From: Caldifarciminota bacterium SM23_42
Lineage (GTDB): Bacteria; Hydrothermota; Tepidihabitantia; SM23-42
Direction of reading: 5' to 3'
Assembly (NCBI GenBank): GCA_001303785.1
Contig: LJUJ01000012.1
Span: forward strand, 1 to 58,699
DNA length: 58,699 nt
Below, in pieces: positions 35,363-46,400 of the stretch (its first letter is position 1; the number at the start of each line of letters is the position of its first letter). The position numbers and the translations under genes are program-made. The notes beneath the pieces were generated by a model. That model searched no databases, was not told where the DNA came from, and saw only the letters and a list, made by a program, of their open reading frames with translations.

Positions 35363-35390
35363 TTGACAGAAATAAATATATCTGTATAAT
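35363..35390 (+). promoter_or_regulatory. Promoter of the ruvX-mltG-cyclase operon
   Basis: TTGACA (35363-35368), 16-base spacer, TATAAT (35385-35390); both perfect. The two divergent -35 boxes form an inverted repeat GTCAATA-AA-TATTGAC (35352-35367), and CTCGCAA (35344-35350) / TTGCGAG (35391-35397) brackets it, a possible operator. Confidence 0.8.
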
Positions 35391-35400
35391 TTGCGAGAAG

Positions 35401-35811
35401 ATGAGGCGAATTATGGCTATTGACTATGGCAGGAAGAGGGTCGGTGTGGCGATCACGGATCCGCTGTGTACGATTGCGCAGCCGTTGATGACCATTAGGC
35501 ACAAATCGGATTTTGACTTGATAAAACGACTTAAGTGTCTTGCAGTGGAAAATGATGTCGGATTGATTCTTTTTGGCAATCCACTTTCTATGAAGGGAGA
35601 GCCGACCGAAATGTCCCAGGAGATAGAACGCTTTGTGAAGAAATTGAAAAGACTCATCGACATTGAGGTAAAGCTGTGGGACGAACGTCACGTAAGTAAG
35701 TACGCGGTGAACAAACTGAAAGGTATGGGTCTGGGTAGCAGAAAGGAAGTCATCGATCGGGTTGCCGCGTCCATTATTTTAGAAGAGTTTCTCGAATCGA
35801 AGAGAGTTTAG
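35401..35811 (+). CDS. ruvX: Holliday-junction resolvase-like / pre-16S rRNA nuclease RuvX (YqgF)
   Basis: 136 residues. RNase H fold: MAIDYGRKRVGVAITD with the first catalytic Asp, LILFGNPLSMKGEPT with the conserved GNP loop, and ELKLWDERHVS-type strand plus DRVAASIILEEFL at the end with the last acidic residues. Two starts are possible: ATG 35401, about 4 bases after the predicted transcript start, or ATG 35413 with GAGG six bases upstream. Stop is followed immediately by mltG. Confidence 0.92.
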   Translation: MRRIMAIDYGRKRVGVAITDPLCTIAQPLMTIRHKSDFDLIKRLKCLAVENDVGLILFGNPLSMKGEPTEMSQEIERFVKKLKRLIDIEVKLWDERHVSKYAVNKLKGMGLGSRKEVIDRVAASIILEEFLESKRV

Positions 35812-36768
35812 ATGAGTAAAAAATATCTCTTGATTGCGCTTGCCGTGTTAATCATCGTCGCTTGGTGGCAACCTCTGAACTTTGGCCAAACCGAAGTGAC
35901 GATTCCCGGTGATGTGAGTGCTCGCGAAATTGCACACTTCTTGGCTTATCAGCGTATTGTCCGCAATGTCGAAGAATTTCTTTTTTGGTTGAAAATAACG
36001 GGGCGTGAGAGGAATCTGAAATCAGGTACCTATGAATTACACAAGTACAAGAACCCTCTCTATGTAATTGGTCGGCTCGCCAGTGGAGGAAAATCAGAGA
36101 TCGTCGTCACGTTACCCGAGGGATTAACAATGTATGAGACCGCTCGGATTCTAGCTGAACGCGGATTGGTAGATGAGAATCGATTCCTTGAGTTGTGTCA
36201 TGACGAGAAGTTCATAAATGAAATAGGCCTCAAGGTACCTTCTCTGGAGGGCTACTTTTTTCCTGATACCTACTCGTTTAGCAGATTACAGAATGAGGCG
36301 GCAATCATCACGACATTTACAAGGAATTTCTTTAGCCGCATCGCCAAGATTGGCTTAATGGATAACGATTCACTGCACCAGGTGATAATACTCGCCTCGA
36401 TTGTTGAGAAGGAGGCGAAATATGAAGACGAAAGGCCAATCATTGCGAAGGTATTTCTCAATCGACTAAAGTCAAGACGTCCCTTGGAGTCGTGTGCTAC
36501 GATCTTCTTTATATTGAAAGTGAAGGACCCGCTAACCACGTCCCAAAGACTCACCGACCGCGATCTGCAAATCGGCTCACCGTACAACACGTATTTACAC
36601 CTTGGGTTACCACCAGGTCCGATATGTTCGCCGGGCGAGAGTGCGATAACGGCGGTGATGTCGCCGGCCGATGTTGATTATCTATACTTCGTTGCCAAGG
36701 GCGATGGGCGGCACCATTTTTCGCGCACATACAGAGAACATATGGCGGCAAAGGATACATACCAATGA
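35812..36768 (+). CDS. mltG: Endolytic murein transglycosylase MltG (YceG-like)
   Basis: 318 residues. One N-terminal transmembrane helix (KKYLLIALAVLIIVAWWQ), a LysM-like segment (PEGLTMYETARILAERGL), SLEGYFFPDTYSF, and the catalytic IILASIVEKEAKYEDE with the conserved Glu. GLPPGPICSPGESAI and the SRTYREH ending are typical. Cleaves nascent glycan strands and sets their length. The usual LQ-x-DPT motif is replaced by LESCATIFF, an unusual substitution near the active site. ATG 35812 directly follows ruvX; a 4-base overlap joins it to the first cyclase-like gene. Confidence 0.92.
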   Translation: MSKKYLLIALAVLIIVAWWQPLNFGQTEVTIPGDVSAREIAHFLAYQRIVRNVEEFLFWLKITGRERNLKSGTYELHKYKNPLYVIGRLASGGKSEIVVTLPEGLTMYETARILAERGLVDENRFLELCHDEKFINEIGLKVPSLEGYFFPDTYSFSRLQNEAAIITTFTRNFFSRIAKIGLMDNDSLHQVIILASIVEKEAKYEDERPIIAKVFLNRLKSRRPLESCATIFFILKVKDPLTTSQRLTDRDLQIGSPYNTYLHLGLPPGPICSPGESAITAVMSPADVDYLYFVAKGDGRHHFSRTYREHMAAKDTYQ

Positions 36769-39182
36769 TTGAAAAAGGTCTTGAAGAAAGCGTGATTCGT
36801 GAGACTCCGTATTACGAGAAACTGCGCGCGACATACCGCGATAGTGCAAACTTCAAGAGGTATTTTAACATCTTAAAGAGAGTTGCACGGCGGGATCCGT
36901 TCATAGAGAAATTAGAAAAGAACGGCGGAAAAGAATTGGTATATCTTGGCAGAAGGATTTACACCCTTCAGGATGATTTCGTCTTGAATTACATTGAGTT
37001 CCTGCGCGACGAGTCACAAATAGAACGCTGGGATAAATTCTTTGAAAGATACAGTCAGCATATATTCGATATTTATGAGGACTTTGTGAATGGTATTAGT
37101 GCCAACGTGGTTATATTCGAGATCGCGAACCGTAAGTTACTCCGTGACATTCTCACTAAGAGAACGCTGAAGGCATCCCTCGATACGAAAACGCTGATCG
37201 CCGAACGATGTGGTACAGTGGTGAATCATCTTTTCAATTATATACGGAATTCATTGACGAAACGTACGGTGGTAGTCGATAACATGATTGTCGATTCGTA
37301 CGAGCACATTCCCTTCGTTCCCAAGACGAGCAATATTGAGACGATGAGGATACTCAGTCAGTCTCTAAAGAAGAAAGGACTCCCCGAACCAATATTCAGC
37401 GCGATTCTTAAAGGAATGACACGTTCCTACTACGCTGATGAGAAGTTGAGAATAATCGAAGCGATAGCTAAATTGCCTTCGCTGACCAAAAAGGCGATAA
37501 GTGACATCTTTGAGTCACAATTTTTCTATCCGGATGAGCAGACGTTAACCGAGATCATCGATGCGCTGCAAAAACGTGGGCGTAAGTTGATGGCCGACGT
37601 CACTAGCAAGAAAAAGAACATAGAAGAAAAGATGCAGAACATTAGGAGAAAGATAACGGATACGACAAACATCATGAGTGATAGTCTGATAAACCTTGCC
37701 GAAGACTTCTCGACCGAGGAAGCCATCGAAAACATGGTGAAACGGTTACATCGAAATGTGATAGGCAATGCTTACGACCTGAAGATTCTAAAATGGGAAT
37801 ATCAAGAATGTCAGGACAAAGAAAATAACCTTAAGGATATCATGCGCTTCAAGCCCGCGGATCTTACCAGGCTTGTCGTCAAGGAAGAATGGGACCCATA
37901 CATAATGCAGGTGCTTCATAGACATGATGAGGTAGCAGATGACAAGCTGCAGTTGATACTCAAGGACGCGGCCAATGATATTAAACATGATGAAGCTGCA
38001 CAACAGATTATGAATCAGTACCGGATGGCGGCTTTCCTCAAAGAGAAATATGATAGCCATCAGATCATGGATAGATTCAACAAGATTGTCGACGAAGTAA
38101 TCACGCCACTTGTGAAATCAATAATATTAGAGGAACTGGTTGACTATTACCCGAAACTATCAGAGATAACGACAACCGAGGGTATTCGTTTCTTGGGCGA
38201 GGAGGCTGCAGCGGGGCGTGTTTCGATGATTGAGAAGGATATAAATGTCACATCATCCGAAGAATCTGCCTCGGACGTGAATGTACTACGTTACAAGAAT
38301 TTGGTTTCGGTCCTGGTGTATGACATAAGGGGATCGACGTTCATGGGCGCGAAATTGCTGAATGCCGAGAAGGAGAGTGCAATACGAAATCTATTTCAAG
38401 AATCGATGCTCTTCGTAGCCGAGAAATATGGAGGTATTCCAATCAAAGATACCGGCGATGGTGGTGTGATATTCTTCGCACGGAATCACTACGACATAAA
38501 GGATGAGAAGACCTTACGTCCGGAAACTGGAAATGTGTTACCGGCGGTGCGTTGCGCAATTGAGATGGTGCAGGAGGCGAAGTTATTTGTACAGAAAAAT
38601 ATCCACCGGTATGGAGACTGGTTCCGTGACGTCCAGGAACGGGAGATTGACTTTGAAGGAGCCGCCTATGCCAAGCTTCCACCTTCATATCAGTCAATAT
38701 TCCAGGTGGGAATAGGTCTTGCCTCGGGTTACTATCCGCGCGAAGTATATTTGGACAAGAATGCGTTTGGTGAGCATGACTTGACAGGAATGCTCGTTCG
38801 CGAAGCGAATCTGTATTCTACGGTAAAGGCGAAAGGAAAATCAACCGTGATATGTGACGACGCAACGGTCTACAATGTTTTGCTGAATGTTGACCGATTT
38901 TCCTTTTTGAACGAGGCTGGGTTGCGTATTGACCCGGTACAGCTTAACATCCAGCAGGCTTTGGAGTATTGGATAAGACAGAGAACAACGCGTAAAGGAT
39001 TCATTCTTGACATCTTTAAGATATTTGTTGCAAGATTTGGCCGCGAGATGGCGGATACGGAAAACTTGAAGATCGTACTGGATGACAGTGATATTGTTAT
39101 TAACGATGGTATCGACGTTCAACTTAAGAAAATGGAGCGTAGCAAAATGCTTTTTGAGTTGTACGCGGAGGTAGTGAAATGA
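36765..39182 (+). CDS. Class III nucleotidyl-cyclase-like protein, long helical N-terminus (A)
   Basis: 805 residues, no membrane segment or signal peptide. Residues ~1-500 are mostly helical with coiled-coil stretches (SKKKNIEEKMQNIRRKI). Residues ~510-720 are a class III adenylate/guanylate cyclase domain: Asp520 in LVYDIRGST and Asp565 in GDGG are the two metal ligands, Lys561 in IKDTGD sits at the purine-selecting Lys, and FQVGIGLASG is the next core strand. The region equivalent to V-N-x-A-x-R reads LVREANLYST (677-686), so the transition-state Asn and Arg are not in place. An extra ~60 residues sit between the GDGG hairpin and GIGLASG. Paralogue of the next gene, overlapping it by 4 bases. 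Confidence 0.75.
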   Translation: MIEKGLEESVIRETPYYEKLRATYRDSANFKRYFNILKRVARRDPFIEKLEKNGGKELVYLGRRIYTLQDDFVLNYIEFLRDESQIERWDKFFERYSQHIFDIYEDFVNGISANVVIFEIANRKLLRDILTKRTLKASLDTKTLIAERCGTVVNHLFNYIRNSLTKRTVVVDNMIVDSYEHIPFVPKTSNIETMRILSQSLKKKGLPEPIFSAILKGMTRSYYADEKLRIIEAIAKLPSLTKKAISDIFESQFFYPDEQTLTEIIDALQKRGRKLMADVTSKKKNIEEKMQNIRRKITDTTNIMSDSLINLAEDFSTEEAIENMVKRLHRNVIGNAYDLKILKWEYQECQDKENNLKDIMRFKPADLTRLVVKEEWDPYIMQVLHRHDEVADDKLQLILKDAANDIKHDEAAQQIMNQYRMAAFLKEKYDSHQIMDRFNKIVDEVITPLVKSIILEELVDYYPKLSEITTTEGIRFLGEEAAAGRVSMIEKDINVTSSEESASDVNVLRYKNLVSVLVYDIRGSTFMGAKLLNAEKESAIRNLFQESMLFVAEKYGGIPIKDTGDGGVIFFARNHYDIKDEKTLRPETGNVLPAVRCAIEMVQEAKLFVQKNIHRYGDWFRDVQEREIDFEGAAYAKLPPSYQSIFQVGIGLASGYYPREVYLDKNAFGEHDLTGMLVREANLYSTVKAKGKSTVICDDATVYNVLLNVDRFSFLNEAGLRIDPVQLNIQQALEYWIRQRTTRKGFILDIFKIFVARFGREMADTENLKIVLDDSDIVINDGIDVQLKKMERSKMLFELYAEVVK

Positions 39183-41446
39183 ACAAGCACAGCGTGAGCG
39201 TTGTCCAGGATTTTGTCGAGAAGAAGAGTAACTACTTCAGTATAATCACAAGGAGATTCGTCAGCGAAGAAAAATACAAAGAGAATCTTTCGGCAGTCGA
39301 GCAAGGGTTGGTATGTTTGGGAATCGCCAAGGATACGATCAAAGTATTCGAAAAGCGAAGCAACTTCATTATCTATCTCGGGCAAAAGCTGACCAAGTAC
39401 GAAGGTTATGAGCTGCCTCTCTATATCGGACATAAGAAAAAAGGTTTACCCATTCCCGAGGCCTTGGTCGAAAAATGTCCTACGGAAGTCACGGCATTGA
39501 TTGAACAAGTAAGCGGGCGCAAGCATATAAATGAGTACAGCAAAGAACTTCGTCAGGATGCGCTTTCTACGGAAATCTTGTTGGCAATACATAGCAGTAT
39601 TGTCGCCGCACGGGTTGAGACATTATTGCCCGATCTGTTGTCCGATGTCGAGCGACTTGGTTTTGCTAGCATCAAGGAGGCGTTAGGGAAAATACCTTCG
39701 ATCTATTTAGAGTATCTGTCACCGACATCGTTAGCAAAGCTATTAAAAAAACTTGCGGGGATGCTACGTGATTTGAAGGGTAAAATGGAGGGGGAGCTCA
39801 AGAGTATTGATCTGTATGCAACACGTATACGCGAGCAACTGGAGGGTCTTTATCTTGAGACTCATCAGGGGTTGCGTGATATAATCGAAAACGACGTCGT
39901 GCAAGGTACGGATACAAATATTATCACCCAGAAAGTATCGAACCTCTTTTCCAGATTGGATCGAATGTTCTTGGGTAATATTTATCATCTTAAGGATTAT
40001 CAAAGAAGAAAGAGAGACATACTTGATAATCTGGGACAGGAAGAAGGGTTCAAGCGCCAGGCCGAGAAACGATCCGTTGAACTAAGAAAGCCGCTCAGTG
40101 AATTGTATGATGAATACATGTTCATACGTAAATTCGGACCTTTGACAAAAGATGAGAACAGGAATTTTCAGAAGTTGTTGACGCAGGAATTGGAAGGTCT
40201 TTATCGTAAGAAGAGCCGAAGCGTATCGCTGCTCAAGAAATTTGAAAGGAGAGGTCTTATTTCAGTTGACCTCGATATTGATACGTTGATCGAAACCTAT
40301 CATTCATTCATGAAGAAAATAATCATCCCGGAATACGTTGGACATTGTTTGCTTGATCTGGTTAGCTGTTTGCCGCCCGCCGACGACGAAGCTCAGAGAG
40401 TGGCGATTGATATGGCGAACCTGAAGACCGTTTTCTTAGCCGGACAGAATATTCTGCAATTAATAGAGAAGGATGATGAGTATCCACGCGAAGTCGTTGA
40501 ATATGTCAACAAATGCCGCAAGTGTGCTACAATACTGGTGTACGACATACGGGGTTCTTCTTATATGGGCATTAAACTGAACGACGCGGTCAAGGAGCAG
40601 AGGATTAAATACAAGTTTGCCAAAGAAATGGCACAGGTCGTGAAGAAATACGAGGGATTTCTGCTCAAGGACACGGGAGATGGTGGTCTGGTATGGTTCT
40701 CTGAGAATTCTGGTTCTTTGTACAATTATCTGTACACGGAATCGGTGACCGGGAAGGGAACCAAGCTACGTTATTCAATATGTTCAGGCGGTGAGTGTGA
40801 TATCATACCGGCCACTGATGCCGCGCGTCGAGCCATACTATGTGCTCGTGATATGGTAATGCGGGCCGAGGAATTCGTGCGCGCGAATTTTGTGCACTAT
40901 CGCGAGTGGTTTGCCGACGTCGCCGAACGGACACTGGAACTCGACGGCATAACCTACGCATTGCTGCCGCCTGAATTCAAGAGTCTATTCCGTATCGGAA
41001 TCGGTATCGCTTCAGGCGTGCCCGACCGGGATGTTATATTTGCAGCTAACTCCTATGGTGACCCTGACCTCGTCGGACCTATTTTGTCTGATGCGAGTCT
41101 CTACTCAAGGGAAAGGCAACCCGGCCGTTCCGTGATCATATGCGATCTACCGACTCTGTTGAATCTCATTCTGAACGTTGAAAACTTCGAATATCCGATC
41201 GAAGAAAAGGATTTTGAGAAGTACTGCAAAACCCTTGAGGGATTGCGTAAGACAACACATGGGTATTGCCTCTCGGACCTTAAAATATCGATTCTCCCAA
41301 AAGGAATTCACTTCTTAGGAGAATTGAACAAGAATAAGGCAATAATTGATGCACGCATCGATGATTTCATGATTGATGAACACCGTAATCTCTACGACGA
41401 TGATAAGAGGAGAATTAAGATGTTATACGAAGTCTTAACTCTCTAA
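39179..41446 (+). CDS. Class III nucleotidyl-cyclase-like protein, long helical N-terminus (B)
   Basis: 755 residues, paralogue of the preceding protein and equally soluble. Helical N-terminal half with coiled coils (RRKRDILDNLGQEEGFKRQA). Cyclase-like domain from ~450: Asp456 in LVYDIRGSS, Lys497 and Asp501 in LKDTGDGG, FRIGIGIASG. The catalytic-helix segment reads GPILSDASLYSRER, again without the canonical Asn/Arg arrangement. Both proteins share a ~50-residue tail ending in MLFELYAEV / MLYEVLTL. Sequence-level identity is low outside the cyclase motifs, which suggests an old duplication into non-identical partners and possibly a heterodimer. Overlaps the next gene by one base. Confidence 0.75.
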   Translation: MNKHSVSVVQDFVEKKSNYFSIITRRFVSEEKYKENLSAVEQGLVCLGIAKDTIKVFEKRSNFIIYLGQKLTKYEGYELPLYIGHKKKGLPIPEALVEKCPTEVTALIEQVSGRKHINEYSKELRQDALSTEILLAIHSSIVAARVETLLPDLLSDVERLGFASIKEALGKIPSIYLEYLSPTSLAKLLKKLAGMLRDLKGKMEGELKSIDLYATRIREQLEGLYLETHQGLRDIIENDVVQGTDTNIITQKVSNLFSRLDRMFLGNIYHLKDYQRRKRDILDNLGQEEGFKRQAEKRSVELRKPLSELYDEYMFIRKFGPLTKDENRNFQKLLTQELEGLYRKKSRSVSLLKKFERRGLISVDLDIDTLIETYHSFMKKIIIPEYVGHCLLDLVSCLPPADDEAQRVAIDMANLKTVFLAGQNILQLIEKDDEYPREVVEYVNKCRKCATILVYDIRGSSYMGIKLNDAVKEQRIKYKFAKEMAQVVKKYEGFLLKDTGDGGLVWFSENSGSLYNYLYTESVTGKGTKLRYSICSGGECDIIPATDAARRAILCARDMVMRAEEFVRANFVHYREWFADVAERTLELDGITYALLPPEFKSLFRIGIGIASGVPDRDVIFAANSYGDPDLVGPILSDASLYSRERQPGRSVIICDLPTLLNLILNVENFEYPIEEKDFEKYCKTLEGLRKTTHGYCLSDLKISILPKGIHFLGELNKNKAIIDARIDDFMIDEHRNLYDDDKRRIKMLYEVLTL

Positions 41447-42837
41447 TGCAAGTATTGGTATACGACCCGGACCGTCTTAGACTGAGCACCATTTCACGAA
41501 ATCTGCGTGAATTGGGGTTGACTAACACAACTGTTTCCAGCATTAATGAATTGCGTAAGACAATTCAGAAGAAGCAATTCGATATTATGATTCTCGATGA
41601 AACTGCGTTGGGATTGTTGGATCAGTTCAAGAAGCAACATGGCGAAGTGCCGATCATAGTGGTTGCCGAAAGGAATTCGATCGTGAATTATGAACGGGCA
41701 ATTTTCGCCGGCATCGCAGGATTGTTGCTTCGCCCGTACCGCCGTGATTTTCTGCTCAGAGTGGTCGACAAGGCGATGAAGAGAAGGAACGAGATCATAT
41801 GTAATCGGCAAACGGTGTTGTCTCTCAGGTGGAAGGTACAAGTACTTCAGACTCTCAATGAAGTAGTGCAGGCAATCAATTCATCTCTCAAGCCCAAGGA
41901 GATTCTCAACACGATTATGGTGAAGGCGGCAGAACTGATAAGGGCGGAAGGCTGGTCGGTGTTGCTACTCGACGAGAATACTAATGAACTTGTCTTTGAG
42001 GCGGCTTCGGGAAAGGCTGGCAAGAAGCTCCTGGGCATGAGATTGAAGATCGGACAAGGAGTTGCCGGCTGGGTAGCACGTTACGGGCAGTCCTTGATTG
42101 TTCCAGATGTCACAAAGGACCCTAGATTTTATTCCGGCGTCGATAAGAGGACAAAATTTACCACGAAATCGGTTCTCTGTGTGCCGATGAAGAGCAGCGA
42201 TAGGATTATCGGAGTCGTTGAAGTTGTCAATAAGGTTGGCGGTGAGCAATTCACTCAGGATGACTACGAGATATTCGAGAACGTAGTAGCCCACCTGACG
42301 ATTGCGCTTGAGAAGGCGCGAATGTATCGAAAAATGGAGGAGGCAAGCCAGGTTGACGATCTGACACAATTATACAATACACGCTACTGTAATCACTTTC
42401 TGGATAACTTCCTGCTCGAGAGAAAGGAAACACGGGGTATCATTTCACTGATATTTCTCGACATCGATTTCTTTAAACTCGTTGATGACAACTTTGGACA
42501 TTTGGTGGGCAGTGAAACGCTAAAAATCGTAGGTGAGAGAATGTCTCGCGTCGTACGCAAGAACGATGTGATCGTGCGCTACGGTGGTGATGAGTACATT
42601 GTGTTGCTGCCCAATACCGACAAAAAAACCGCCGCAATCATTGCGGAGCGTATCAGAAAAGAGATAAGCCGTGAGCCATTTTACGCATTTGGCAATAAGA
42701 AATTCAACATCGCCGTGACCTTGGGTGTCGCGACATATCCGGATGATGCCAAGACCCGTGACGAACTGATCGGTAAGGCAGATCGGGCCATGTATGAAGG
42801 TAAGATGTCCGGGCGCAACAAGGTCGTACTCGCCTAG
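41446..42837 (+). CDS. REC-GAF-GGDEF diguanylate cyclase
   Basis: 463 residues. Residues 1-115: receiver domain with acidic Asp7/Asp9 and phospho-acceptor Asp51 (MILDE); the usual Lys of the K-P pair is Arg96-Pro97. Residues ~130-285: GAF domain (ILNTIMVKAAELIRAEGWSV, GQGVAGWVARYGQ, SVLCVPMKSSDRIIGVVEVV). Residues ~300-463: GGDEF domain with DDLTQLYNTRY, FLDIDFFKLVDDNFGH and GGDEY at 380-384. RKND five residues before it is an intact RxxD inhibitory c-di-GMP site. The active-site Phe is Tyr. Probably makes c-di-GMP. Translationally linked to the two cyclase-like genes. Confidence 0.92.
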   Translation: MQVLVYDPDRLRLSTISRNLRELGLTNTTVSSINELRKTIQKKQFDIMILDETALGLLDQFKKQHGEVPIIVVAERNSIVNYERAIFAGIAGLLLRPYRRDFLLRVVDKAMKRRNEIICNRQTVLSLRWKVQVLQTLNEVVQAINSSLKPKEILNTIMVKAAELIRAEGWSVLLLDENTNELVFEAASGKAGKKLLGMRLKIGQGVAGWVARYGQSLIVPDVTKDPRFYSGVDKRTKFTTKSVLCVPMKSSDRIIGVVEVVNKVGGEQFTQDDYEIFENVVAHLTIALEKARMYRKMEEASQVDDLTQLYNTRYCNHFLDNFLLERKETRGIISLIFLDIDFFKLVDDNFGHLVGSETLKIVGERMSRVVRKNDVIVRYGGDEYIVLLPNTDKKTAAIIAERIRKEISREPFYAFGNKKFNIAVTLGVATYPDDAKTRDELIGKADRAMYEGKMSGRNKVVLA

Positions 42838-42883: not shown

Positions 42884-42911
42884 TTGAAAATGTCCATTTT
42901 TTCTGTATAAT
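42884..42911 (+). promoter_or_regulatory. Promoter of the CBS-antiporter operon
   Basis: TTGAAA (42884-42889), 16-base spacer, TATAAT (42906-42911), then 6 bases (ATATTC) to ATG 42918. No ribosome site fits, so the mRNA is predicted to be leaderless. Confidence 0.75.
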
Positions 42912-42917
42912 ATATTC

Positions 42918-43406
42918 ATGGATATCGAAAAACTTTCGGTCGCATCGGTGATGAGACAAGATGCGCCTACAGTCAAACCTTCGACTACCTTACAACAACT
43001 GATCGAGTTTATGCGTAAGACTAATCAATATATGCTGCCGGTCGTTGATGATGACAACATTCTCTTGGGAATCGTGAACTACCGAGGCATTCTGAACATC
43101 TTCCGACCCTTTTCCAAGTCGGTCAGCGAAATAGTCGAACGAATGCCTTTTGTCGAAAAAAACGCTGATGAAGATTTGAATCTAGAACTCTCACCCGAAA
43201 TGGGAACGCTGATTCTGGTTGCTGATATCATCAACACCAATTTTGTCTCGATCGAAGAAACTAGTACAGTTCGTGAAGCACGACGCTTGATGAGACTGCA
43301 CAATATAGAAACCCTACCCGTTGTTTCAGATAAGAAGCTAATGGGTGTTTTGTCGTTGCTTGACATTCTTGTCTACATCTTCAAAGAGCACGATATCCTA
43401 AAGTGA
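42918..43406 (+). CDS. CBS-domain pair protein
   Basis: 162 residues made of two CBS domains: VASVMRQDAPTVKPSTTLQQ ... LPVVDDDNILLGIV, and TNFVSIEETSTVREARRLM ... LPVVSDKKLMGVLSL. Such pairs bind adenine nucleotides and regulate attached or neighbouring proteins. Its stop overlaps the GTG start of the first antiporter (GTGA), so a role as nucleotide sensor for the antiporters is a reasonable inference. Start fixed by the -10 box 6 bases upstream. Confidence 0.9.
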   Translation: MDIEKLSVASVMRQDAPTVKPSTTLQQLIEFMRKTNQYMLPVVDDDNILLGIVNYRGILNIFRPFSKSVSEIVERMPFVEKNADEDLNLELSPEMGTLILVADIINTNFVSIEETSTVREARRLMRLHNIETLPVVSDKKLMGVLSLLDILVYIFKEHDILK

Positions 43407-44581
43407 ATAGTCTGCTCAGCGCCGGTCTGATATTACTGTTGGGATTTGTCGGCGCGCGCCTGTTGAAGCTAATTCGTTTGCCTAATGTAACCGCATTCCT
43501 TCTAGTCGGCATTCTTATTGGACCCCATATATTGAATTTAGTTACACCCGATATTTTCACGGCTTCGGAGTTTTTCTCCAACTTAGTATTAGGCATAATT
43601 GCGTTCAGCCTGGGTGAGAATTTCCGTTTAGACAAAATTCGAGTGGGCATGAAGCAGGTCATGTGGATTTCGATCGTCGCTGCTTTGGGTGCTTGGGTTC
43701 TGGTTTCGGCGGCGTTGATCATCTACTTTGTGACCATCGAGATACCCATATATCCGGCTATTGTGCTCGGTGCAGCTGCTTCTGCCACTGCCCCGGCGGC
43801 TACGGTTTTAGTTATTCGAGAATACCGTGCCAGCGGCATGCTAACAGAACTCTTGCTAAAAGTGGTGGCGATTGATGATGCCTGGTGTCTCATTTTTGCC
43901 GCCATGGCTATTGCCGCCGGTAATGCAATGCGTGCGGAAGTATTTCAAATGTCAATTGTTTTTGCAGGATTGGGCGAAATCTTTGGCGCGCTTTTGATTG
44001 GCGGTATATTAGGATACATCTCCTCGCGACTGAGTAAGTTTGTTCGGACGAGAGAAGAACTTCTGATATACACTCTAGGCTTGGTGCTTTTCAACGTAGG
44101 ACTCTCAATTGCGTTGGAAGTGTCGGTACTTCTGTCATCCATGATGATGGGTCTCGTCATGGTCAATATGGCGCGTGAAAACTATAAGTTTTTTGAAGTG
44201 TTGCGTTCCGTAGATACGCCGCTTTACCTCGCTTTTTTCATCATATCTGGTGCTCATCTGGATTTTGGCATACTCTACAAGATGGGTATTGCCGGAATTC
44301 TCTACGTGACGTTTCGTACAATTGGCAAAGTGTATGGAGCAAAGTTGGGCGCGCGAATAAGCGATGCACCAGAAGCCGCCGGAAGGTGGTTGGGGTTGAG
44401 CCTGGCACCGCAGGCAGGTGTTGCACTGGGCATTGGGCTTGTAGCCAAAACAGCCTTTCCTGAATATGGTGACTACATCTTTACCATAATCGCGGCAACT
44501 TCGGTCATATTTGAGCTGGTCGGACCGCTTCTCACAAAATATAGCCTCATGAGGGCTGGGGAGATAGCATCAACTGAATAG
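43403..44581 (+). CDS. Cation:proton antiporter (CPA2/KefB-like), copy 1
   Basis: 392 residues, 11-13 membrane segments. Starts at GTG 43403 overlapping the CBS stop. Family features: LGFVGARLLKLIRLPNVTAF in helix 1-2, GIIAFSLGENFRL, the Ala-rich GAAASATAPAATVLVIREYR stretch with KVVAIDDAW (the paired-Asp region of CPA2 ion sites), and GLSLAPQAGVALGIGLVAKT near the end. Lacks the C-terminal RCK/TrkA-N domain of KefB, which fits regulation by the separate CBS protein. Transported ion (Na+ or K+) cannot be told. Confidence 0.88.
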   Translation: MNSLLSAGLILLLGFVGARLLKLIRLPNVTAFLLVGILIGPHILNLVTPDIFTASEFFSNLVLGIIAFSLGENFRLDKIRVGMKQVMWISIVAALGAWVLVSAALIIYFVTIEIPIYPAIVLGAAASATAPAATVLVIREYRASGMLTELLLKVVAIDDAWCLIFAAMAIAAGNAMRAEVFQMSIVFAGLGEIFGALLIGGILGYISSRLSKFVRTREELLIYTLGLVLFNVGLSIALEVSVLLSSMMMGLVMVNMARENYKFFEVLRSVDTPLYLAFFIISGAHLDFGILYKMGIAGILYVTFRTIGKVYGAKLGARISDAPEAAGRWLGLSLAPQAGVALGIGLVAKTAFPEYGDYIFTIIAATSVIFELVGPLLTKYSLMRAGEIASTE

Positions 44582-45740
44582 CATTTTAGGTTTTGCCTTC
44601 ATTATAGTATGTGGCTACGTTGGGGCAAAACTTCTACGTCGAATTCGATTTCCTGCAGTTACTGCATATCTAGTAATTGGTATTGTTATTGGTCCACGTT
44701 TGCTGTACCTCATACCTGCGAAAGTCATGGACGTTTCTGATTTCATTTCCAACTTTGTGTTGGGAATGATTGCTTTCGCTCTTGGTTCGAACTTCACCGT
44801 TAAACAGCTCAGAAGCGCGGGTAAGCCGGTATTATGGATTTCGATCTTGGAGGCAGGATTTGCGTGGATTTTAGTTACACTGGTAATGATACTGTACTTT
44901 GTCATAAAACACCTACCAATTCACCCGGCTCTCGTATTGGGAGCGGCGGCTGCAGCAACTGCGCCTGCGGCAACTGTCATGGTCATCCGGGAGTATCGCG
45001 CGACTGGGCCAGTAACTGAAATGTTAATGCGAGTTGTTGCAATTGACGACGCCTGGTGTCTATTGTTTTCTGCCCTGGCCATAGCGTCAGCAAATGCGCT
45101 CACGTTGGGTATATTCAACACACACGTGGTGATGGAGGCATTTTTCGAAATATTTGCCGCCTTGATCTTGGGTGGCATTCTGGGTGCTCTGCTATACTTC
45201 GTTTCAAGGTTTATCGTAACTAGAGAAGAAGTTTTAGTAGCGACTGTTGGTTTTATACTTCTGGCTGTTGGATTGTCTATGCGATTGAGACTATCACCGT
45301 TACTGACTAATATCGCTTTTGGTATTTTCGTTGCCAATATTGCAAAGAATAGTGAACTATTCTTCGCAGCATTAAGAGAGGTTGATAGCGTTCTTTTTCT
45401 CGCTTTCTTTGTTCTGGTTGGTGCAAATTTAGAGCTCGACATTGTGCCACGGATTGGTGTCATGGGATTGCTATACATCATTTTTAGGGTTGTAGGCAAA
45501 ATCCTAGGGGTCAAATTGGGTGCTTGGATATCTGGGGCCGGTTCTAATATTGGCAATTACCTAGGTTGGGGATTGGTGCCGCAGGCAGGCGTTGCCCTCG
45601 GTGTGGCCCTGAGTGCTAAAGCGTTATATCCCGAGTACGGCGATATTATATTCACCACCATCACCGCAACGACAGTAATATATGAACTAGTTGGACCGAT
45701 ATTTGCCAAGTACGGACTGCAGAAAGCAGGAGAGATTTGA
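44574..45740 (+). CDS. Cation:proton antiporter (CPA2/KefB-like), copy 2, CTG start
   Basis: About 388 residues and a close tandem paralogue of copy 1 (VVAIDDAW, GAAAAATAPAATVMVIREYR, GWGLVPQAGVALGVALSAK). The first ATG/GTG/TTG of the frame is TTG 44700, which would delete the first helix. The frame is open back to 44568, and the codons from CTG 44574 read LNSILGFAFIIVCGYVGAK, aligning with MNSLLSAGLILLLGFVGAR of copy 1 at the same position relative to the upstream stop. Translation therefore probably starts at CTG 44574 (or ATT 44583), overlapping the stop of copy 1. Confidence 0.8.
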   Translation: MNSILGFAFIIVCGYVGAKLLRRIRFPAVTAYLVIGIVIGPRLLYLIPAKVMDVSDFISNFVLGMIAFALGSNFTVKQLRSAGKPVLWISILEAGFAWILVTLVMILYFVIKHLPIHPALVLGAAAAATAPAATVMVIREYRATGPVTEMLMRVVAIDDAWCLLFSALAIASANALTLGIFNTHVVMEAFFEIFAALILGGILGALLYFVSRFIVTREEVLVATVGFILLAVGLSMRLRLSPLLTNIAFGIFVANIAKNSELFFAALREVDSVLFLAFFVLVGANLELDIVPRIGVMGLLYIIFRVVGKILGVKLGAWISGAGSNIGNYLGWGLVPQAGVALGVALSAKALYPEYGDIIFTTITATTVIYELVGPIFAKYGLQKAGEI

Positions 45741-45944: not shown

Positions 45945-46092
45945 AGATACTGTAGATTCAGGGGAATCTGGTGGTTTTGAATTTTGAAATTATGATTTGT
46001 TTCGGATTTAGGTAGAAAACAAAGGCAGAAGAAGGCGGAGATAATGGCGATAGAGGGCTACGAAGGCAAACATCTAAGACACGAAGTTGCTG

Positions 46093-46123
46093 TTTTGATA
46101 TTGGAATTTCGTGCTTAGAATTT
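46093..46123. repeat. Left arm of inverted repeat flanking tRNA-Pro
   Basis: TTTTGATATTG followed by TTTCGTGCTTAGAATTT, inverse of the copy at 46278-46312 on the other side of the tRNA apart from a short indel between the two blocks. Confidence 0.65.
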
Positions 46124-46138
46124 AGAGTTTTAAGGAAA

Positions 46139-46212
46139 TCGGGGCGATCGGATTTGAACCGACGACCTCCAGCACCCCAAGCTGGCGCGCTAAGCCACTG
46201 CGCCACGCCCCG
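46139..46212 (-). tRNA. tRNA-Pro(GGG)
   Basis: 74 bases. Acceptor stem CGGGGCG / CGCCCCG starts with C1 as in proline tRNAs; D arm GCGC-AGTGGCTTA-GCGC; anticodon stem CCAGC/GCTGG with loop TTGGGGT, anticodon GGG; variable loop AGGTC; T arm GTCGG-TTCAAAT-CCGAT; discriminator A. CCA is not encoded. Its promoter's -10 box ends 7 bases before the first tRNA base, so there is almost no 5' leader. Confidence 0.95.
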
Positions 46213-46219
46213 ATTGACC

Positions 46220-46247
46220 ATTATAGTGAGTGAAAGACATGTGTCAA
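46220..46247 (-). promoter_or_regulatory. Promoter of tRNA-Pro
   Basis: Minus strand: TTGACA (46247-46242), 16-base spacer, TATAAT (46225-46220), both perfect, 7 bases (GGTCAAT) before the tRNA. Confidence 0.85.
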
Positions 46248-46277
46248 GCACCAAGCGATAAAGAGATTGAAAATTCG

Positions 46278-46400
46278 AAATTCTAAGCACGAAACTCTAA
46301 ACAATATCAAAATTCGAATATCAAATGACCAAAAACCTGTTTTGAAATTGGGACATTCGTGCTTTGAATTTGTTTAGAATTTAGATATTAGGAATTAGAA
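46278..46400. repeat. Right arm and further copies of the GTGCTTAGAATTT repeat
   Basis: 46278-46312 (AAATTCTAAGCACGAAA ... CAATATCAAAA) is the inverse of the left arm at 46093-46123. A third, diverged, copy in the left-arm orientation follows (ACATTCGTGCTTTGAATTT, about 46351-46369). The words run to the end of nikR. Confidence 0.6.

Follow-up and report, generated by a model that had tools for sequence, protein, structure and literature searches.

The known class III cyclases are enzymes or the dead halves of heterodimers. What, then, is the role of two paralogues of this fold that are encoded together with a diguanylate cyclase and lack the catalytic arginine? A family with every substrate-binding residue but with a fixed loss of this Arg across more than one phylum, travelling with a diguanylate cyclase gene, would be either a sensor use of the fold or a cyclase whose catalytic arrangement differs. 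Here, we analyze such a locus from Caldifarciminota bacterium SM23_42 (contig LJUJ01000012.1); the window is the whole stretch of 58,699 nucleotides. The two cyclase-fold genes are named A and B, and the diguanylate cyclase encoded by the third gene, 3' of both, is named DGC. For this uncultured group, the locus would offer a concrete link of nucleotide state to c-di-GMP.

All features of the locus are on the + strand. A promoter-like site (35363..35390), matching the sigma-70 consensus at 12/12 positions, lies directly 5' of ruvX (35401..35811; Pfam RuvX, E 7.3e-35), which is followed by mltG of the YceG family (35812..36768; Pfam YceG, E 4.3e-78), A (36765..39182, 805 amino acids), B (39179..41446, 755 amino acids), and DGC (41446..42837, 463 amino acids). 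The ORF coordinates agree with the overlaps given in the earlier note, i.e., 4 bases between mltG and A, 4 between A and B, and 1 between B and DGC. A second promoter-like site, 11/12 against the same consensus (42884..42911), precedes a CBS gene. Both sites come from a consensus scan only; their positions fit one unit, ruvX-mltG-A-B-DGC, and the second suggests that the genes downstream of DGC are probably a separate unit.

Fold and active site of A and B

A and B are paralogues with 30% identity across ~500 residues (E 1.7e-48), and hydropathy marks both as soluble (the highest Kyte-Doolittle mean over 19 residues is 1.33 for A and 1.44 for B). AlphaFold models of A (m405b71ca50bb, pLDDT 83.9, 52-row alignment) and B (m42f0bf596feb, pLDDT 85.1, 50-row alignment) contain the helical N-terminus of ~450-500 residues that had been proposed from the sequence, followed by a cyclase-fold domain, residues 512-805 of A (38298..39179) and 448-755 of B (40520..41443), delimited by model, fold match, and alignment. 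The best solved match of both is CyaB of Pseudomonas aeruginosa (3r5g; Z 19.2, rmsd 2.6, 182 residues for A; Z 17.6, rmsd 2.3, 182 residues for B), and 50/50 among the matches listed for each model (VIA-align) are nucleotidyl cyclases or proteins containing such a domain; the match lists are taken up by the cyclase domain and not by the N-terminus. CyaB is also retrieved by sequence with a profile of 46 family domains (E 5.6e-5, PDB sequences), whereas the full-length profile found chiefly helical-protein noise from the N-terminus, and the profile alignment of the family to nine canonical cyclases taken from the retrieved loci has a probability of 97. Pfam (E up to 1, PF00211 included) and NCBIfam gave no match of note for either protein. 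The divergent class III cyclase fold that the earlier note had recognized is thus borne out by the models and the fold matches to CyaB, and within the class III nucleotidyl-cyclase fold, A and B form an ancient branch that is new as a family. With CyaB they have in common the fold, the two metal Asp, the Lys, and the DIRG loop; they differ from it and from class III cyclases in the missing transition-state Arg, the altered Asn slot, an insertion before β4, and the long helical N-terminus outside PF00211.

Conservation was followed in 94 domains, i.e., a 90-row alignment (98 ORFs found minus 8 incomplete or N-broken) plus four rows from outside the phylum; residue numbers are those of A unless B is named. 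The metal Asp pair and the Lys are where they had been placed, D520/D565 and K561 in A and D456/D501 and K497 in B, and the second adenine-binding Asp, D672 in A and D630 in B, which the earlier note had not mentioned, is retained as well. Seven positions are invariant, D520, R522, K561, D565, N666, D672, and S693; the two metal Asp and K561 and D672, the adenine-selecting pair of the adenylate type, are therefore retained in 94/94 domains.

The active-site helix is different. Model helices and the profile alignment identify VREANLYST in α4 of A (residues 676-685, 38790..38819) and ILSDASLYSR in α4 of B (residues 634-643, 41078..41107) with the canonical V-N-x-A-x-R helix, as had been read from the sequence, and both transition-state residues are missing in the window's proteins: the Asn slot is R679 in A and S637 in B, and the Arg slot, L683 and L641. 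Across the family, no domain has Arg in the Arg slot assigned by the profile alignment (0/94), and the transition-state Asn is found in 22/94, every one of the B clade. The Asn slot of the A clade is Arg in 42/42 rows, an invariance that had been missed before; that of the B clade (n=52) holds Asn in 22, Ala in 16, Ser in 8, Asp in 5, and Gly in 1, with Ala or Ser in the relatives of the window's B. The shared insertion before the GIG(L/I)ASG strand is real, ~36 residues long, and modeled with low confidence (pLDDT ~50-60); it lies between α3 and β4 in A (residues 612-647, 38598..38705; model and profile alignment) and before β4 in B (residues 570-605, 40886..40993; model and alignment). The basic residues that never vary differ between the clades: they are R541 and R679 in A (42/42 each), where position 621 is also K or R in 41/42, and R531, R575, and R605 in B (52/52 each), of which R575 and R605 are within the insertion and the R605 position is Gln in 41/42 A-clade rows. 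These clade-specific Arg (R541 and R679; R531, R575, and R605) could be candidate substitutes for the lost Arg.

Since the metal, Lys, and Asp sites are kept in 94/94 domains and Arg in 0/94, in ancient sister clades, the losses are old fixed traits and not decay. A and B are under purifying selection, with pN/pS of ~0.15 each against the nearest relative (synonymous sites are close to saturation); this value and homologues in 53/147 genomes of the phylum indicate that the genes are not chance ORFs. Two precedents bear on the altered helix. Ma1120, a natural adenylyl cyclase with Ala in the Asn slot and Lys plus Asp as its ATP pair, is active (PMC4215837), so Asn loss alone is compatible with activity and only the Arg loss argues against catalysis. 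The DUF2652 cyclase-like proteins, too, are divergent members of class III in which the Asn slot is non-canonical, with Ile there in the mycobacterial set; their Arg is reported as kept (PMC4886424). A and B have lost the Arg, and DUF2652 is not among their Pfam matches at E up to 1.

The family across genomes

Matches to A or B occur in 53 of the 147 genomes of the window's phylum, the WOR-3/Stahlbacteria group. A scan of 84,980 species returned 58 loci, four of them beyond the phylum's genomes (including UBP2, Edwardsbacteria, and TA06 SM23_40); the scan used exact back-translated motifs, which relatives with altered motifs escape, and these family limits are lower bounds. The phylum of the Edwardsbacteria locus has one copy in 10/10 genomes. 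A tree of 69 non-redundant domains, made by a quick method and with four long branches, separates A (34 rows) from B (35 rows) with SH-aLRT 99 each, and the A/B split predates the families of the phylum. A viral origin was considered and dropped, two IMG/VR scans having returned no relative; the same applies to a defence system, for which PADLOC gave only weak matches of unnamed candidates. Split B genes in two genomes, G085 and G087 (L114, L116, L139, L140), were rejected as true variants because the breaks fall at runs of N. Both are single-contig assemblies, and B of G085 is also repeated elsewhere; we consider these scaffold artefacts.

The third gene of the locus has the REC-GAF-GGDEF architecture assigned to it before (GGDEF E 4.5e-40; GAF E 2.2e-17), although its REC is degenerate and stays under the Pfam cut-off. 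It has an RxxD I-site and, as RYGGDEY, the GG[DE]EF motif expected of an active diguanylate cyclase. Among 44 partner DGCs examined, RYGGDE[FY] is present in 44/44, the RxxD I-site in 23/44, and an NK...F...D motif of the GAF domain in 40/44. The last is common among bacterial GAF domains generally and not diagnostic, and GAF is missing in families f20 and f21; we therefore rejected the GAF as a cyclic-nucleotide receptor. By Pfam, none of the partner DGCs scanned has a cNMP-binding domain, and that of f20/f21 has no GAF, REC, or cNMP domain.

The link to c-di-GMP, proposed from a single locus, is supported: in 54/61 B-clade loci a DGC gene is directly 3' of B, with a gap of -61 to +21 bases. 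The 61 are the loci with at least 300 bases beyond B (L139 and L140 are from one genome); 52 of the pairs were found by ORF and two, L221 and L222, by tblastn. The seven without an adjoining DGC are L084, L095-L099, and L109. Chance would not be expected to bring the two genes side by side in this way, as the window's own genome has just 10 GGDEF matches in 2.53 Mb. The search for the paired genes in other genomes thus had two outcomes: the B-DGC pair is widespread, while A and B adjoin in some families only.

The B-DGC pair stays together as its surroundings change, being found in a pyrimidine operon, beside type IV pilus genes, after ruvX-mltG-A, and in another phylum. Neighbor genes were named by Pfam on one representative each and BLAST to the remainder. 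The genes 5' of B are pyrR-pyrB-pyrC in 13 loci of four families (DGC is absent in 6/13, i.e., f11 and L084), pilB-pilB-pilT in 5 loci (f20, f21), mltG-A in f1, f2, and f5, and a creatininase-like gene in L169. L086:2687-11044 and 12 further loci have B directly after pyrR-pyrB-pyrC, then, in some, DGC and a uridine-kinase-like gene. The pyrR-pyrB-pyrC-B order may hint at a link of pyrimidine supply to c-di-GMP. Apart from B, A directly follows rplQ in 6 loci and precedes valS in 11, in an rpsD-rpoA-rplQ...valS operon of other families; A-clade genes between rplQ and valS in this ribosomal protein-rpoA operon are seen at L078, L075, L080-L082, and L107. Judged by these neighbor genes (pyr genes, rplQ, valS), the surroundings of A and B are growth-related. 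The earlier note had also hinted at cell-wall control from the ruvX-mltG linkage; this linkage occurs only in the order of the window and in one additional family, giving way elsewhere to rplQ/valS, pyrimidine, and pilus operons, and a cell-wall role is accordingly not specifically indicated.

Sensor, enzyme, or heterodimer

A nucleotide-binding sensor is the leading reading: A and B would be Mg-ATP-binding cyclase-fold regulators of the co-encoded DGC, weak or inactive as cyclases, which we rate slightly below an even chance. It is supported by the fold, the 94/94 retention of the metal sites and the Lys/Asp pair together with Arg in 0/94, the B-DGC pairing, the GGDE[FY] motif of 44/44 DGCs, the growth-related surroundings, and the purifying selection. 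The 7/61 B loci without an adjoining DGC count against it, and two metal Asp plus a full adenine pair in every row seem more than a sensor needs and would fit an active enzyme at least as well. The latter possibility, unusual adenylate cyclases making cAMP with an Arg substitute (R679 in A, R575 or R531 in B) and acting on CRP-type proteins or the DGC GAF, can draw on those invariant residues, on the clade-invariant Arg in the insertion and on α4, on the dispensable Asn of Ma1120 (PMC4215837), and on 3 cNMP-binding-domain matches in the window's own genome as a potential cAMP reader. It also has a precedent in Xanthomonas, where the class III guanylate cyclase gene XC_0250 stands beside XC_0249, which encodes a cNMP-GGDEF protein (PMC3770947). 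Both loci pair a cyclase-fold gene with one for a diguanylate cyclase; the A/B locus differs in that, among the partner DGCs scanned with Pfam, there are REC/GAF or neither of these and in no case a cNMP domain, and that the substrate pair is Lys/Asp and the catalytic Arg is missing. That Arg is missing in 94/94 domains, the GAF motif seen in 40/44 DGCs is of a common kind, and a cyclic nucleotide acting on a GAF, REC, or cNMP domain cannot cover all cases, as the f20/f21 DGC has none of them; we regard active adenylate cyclases as rather unlikely.

An obligate A-B heterodimer of the mammalian adenylyl cyclase type, in which one site works, does not hold as a general rule, although the earlier note had raised mutual dependence: of the 53 WOR-3 genomes that encode a homologue, both clades are present in 40, B alone in 12, and A alone in 1. 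A is also without B in TA06 L173, where it is directly after an mltG-like gene, a neighboring phylum has a single copy in 10/10 genomes, A and B are in different operons in f16, f28, f29, and f30, and neither has lost a metal Asp. On the other side, A and B adjoin in f1, f2, f5, and f15, and the Asn was lost from B in just two lineages, both with A (f30; f1/f2/f5), while 12/12 WOR-3 genomes with B alone keep it. The pattern would fit relaxation of the B helix in lineages with A to help it, but it comes from two loss events only, and we consider the obligate heterodimer improbable. A different product, i.e., a palm-like site making, for example, a dinucleotide (linear or cyclic) or a cyclic nucleotide with a base other than adenine, possibly tied to pyrimidine supply, would suit the altered helix, in which A always has Arg at the Asn slot, and the pyrimidine operons of B in four families. 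The Pycsar cyclase PycC has the fold (7r65, Z 16.7 with A). R142 of EaPycC is four residues before the metal D146 (PMC11224242), and its slot is K561 in A; there A and B have the invariant Lys and PycC has pyrimidine-specific residues, so the invariant ATP pair K and D is unlike what is reported for pyrimidine cyclases. PADLOC gave no match of the pyrimidine-cyclase kind, and A and B are in a conserved core-genome setting, not in defence. A different product is, in our opinion, very improbable.

We return to the Mg-ATP-binding regulators. B, paired with itself or, in genomes that have A, with A, would bind Mg-ATP at the dimer interface and cyclize it slowly or not at all; its bound or unbound state would reach the co-translated DGC via the helical N-terminus, through direct contact, and c-di-GMP output would then track the nucleotide or growth state of the cell. 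Direct contact is favored over a diffusible cyclic nucleotide in f20/f21, whose partner DGC has no GAF, REC, or cNMP domain. MshEN pilus ATPases would be the likely c-di-GMP reader: the window's own genome has two MshEN matches and no PilZ match, which makes type IV pilus ATPases a plausible end point, and pilB-pilT 5' of B in f20/f21 supports the pilus link. In the fullest form of this reading, a phylum-wide family would have given up cyclization and would instead sense Mg-ATP (nucleotide charge), switching the synthesis of c-di-GMP through direct contact, with the DGC moving along between pyrimidine, pilus, and housekeeping operons; this we put forward tentatively, and with more doubt than belief.

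Novelty and neighboring genes

In the open-licence literature we found nothing on the A/B family, and no paper joining WOR-3 with adenylate cyclase or Stahlbacteria with cyclic di-GMP. The cyclase fold is already known, as is a cyclase gene beside a GGDEF gene (PMC3770947); what is new is the A/B family itself, together with the active-site change that is fixed in it and its persistent pairing with a diguanylate cyclase.

At 42918-45740 of the window, 3' of DGC and with their own promoter-like site, are one gene for a CBS-domain protein and two for paralogues resembling Na+/H+ antiporters; the order DGC-CBS-nhaP-nhaP is found again in many f1 genomes. The sole tRNA of the window, tRNA-Pro (GGG), is on the - strand at 46138-46213, and an ORF that overlaps it (45958-46290) is probably spurious.
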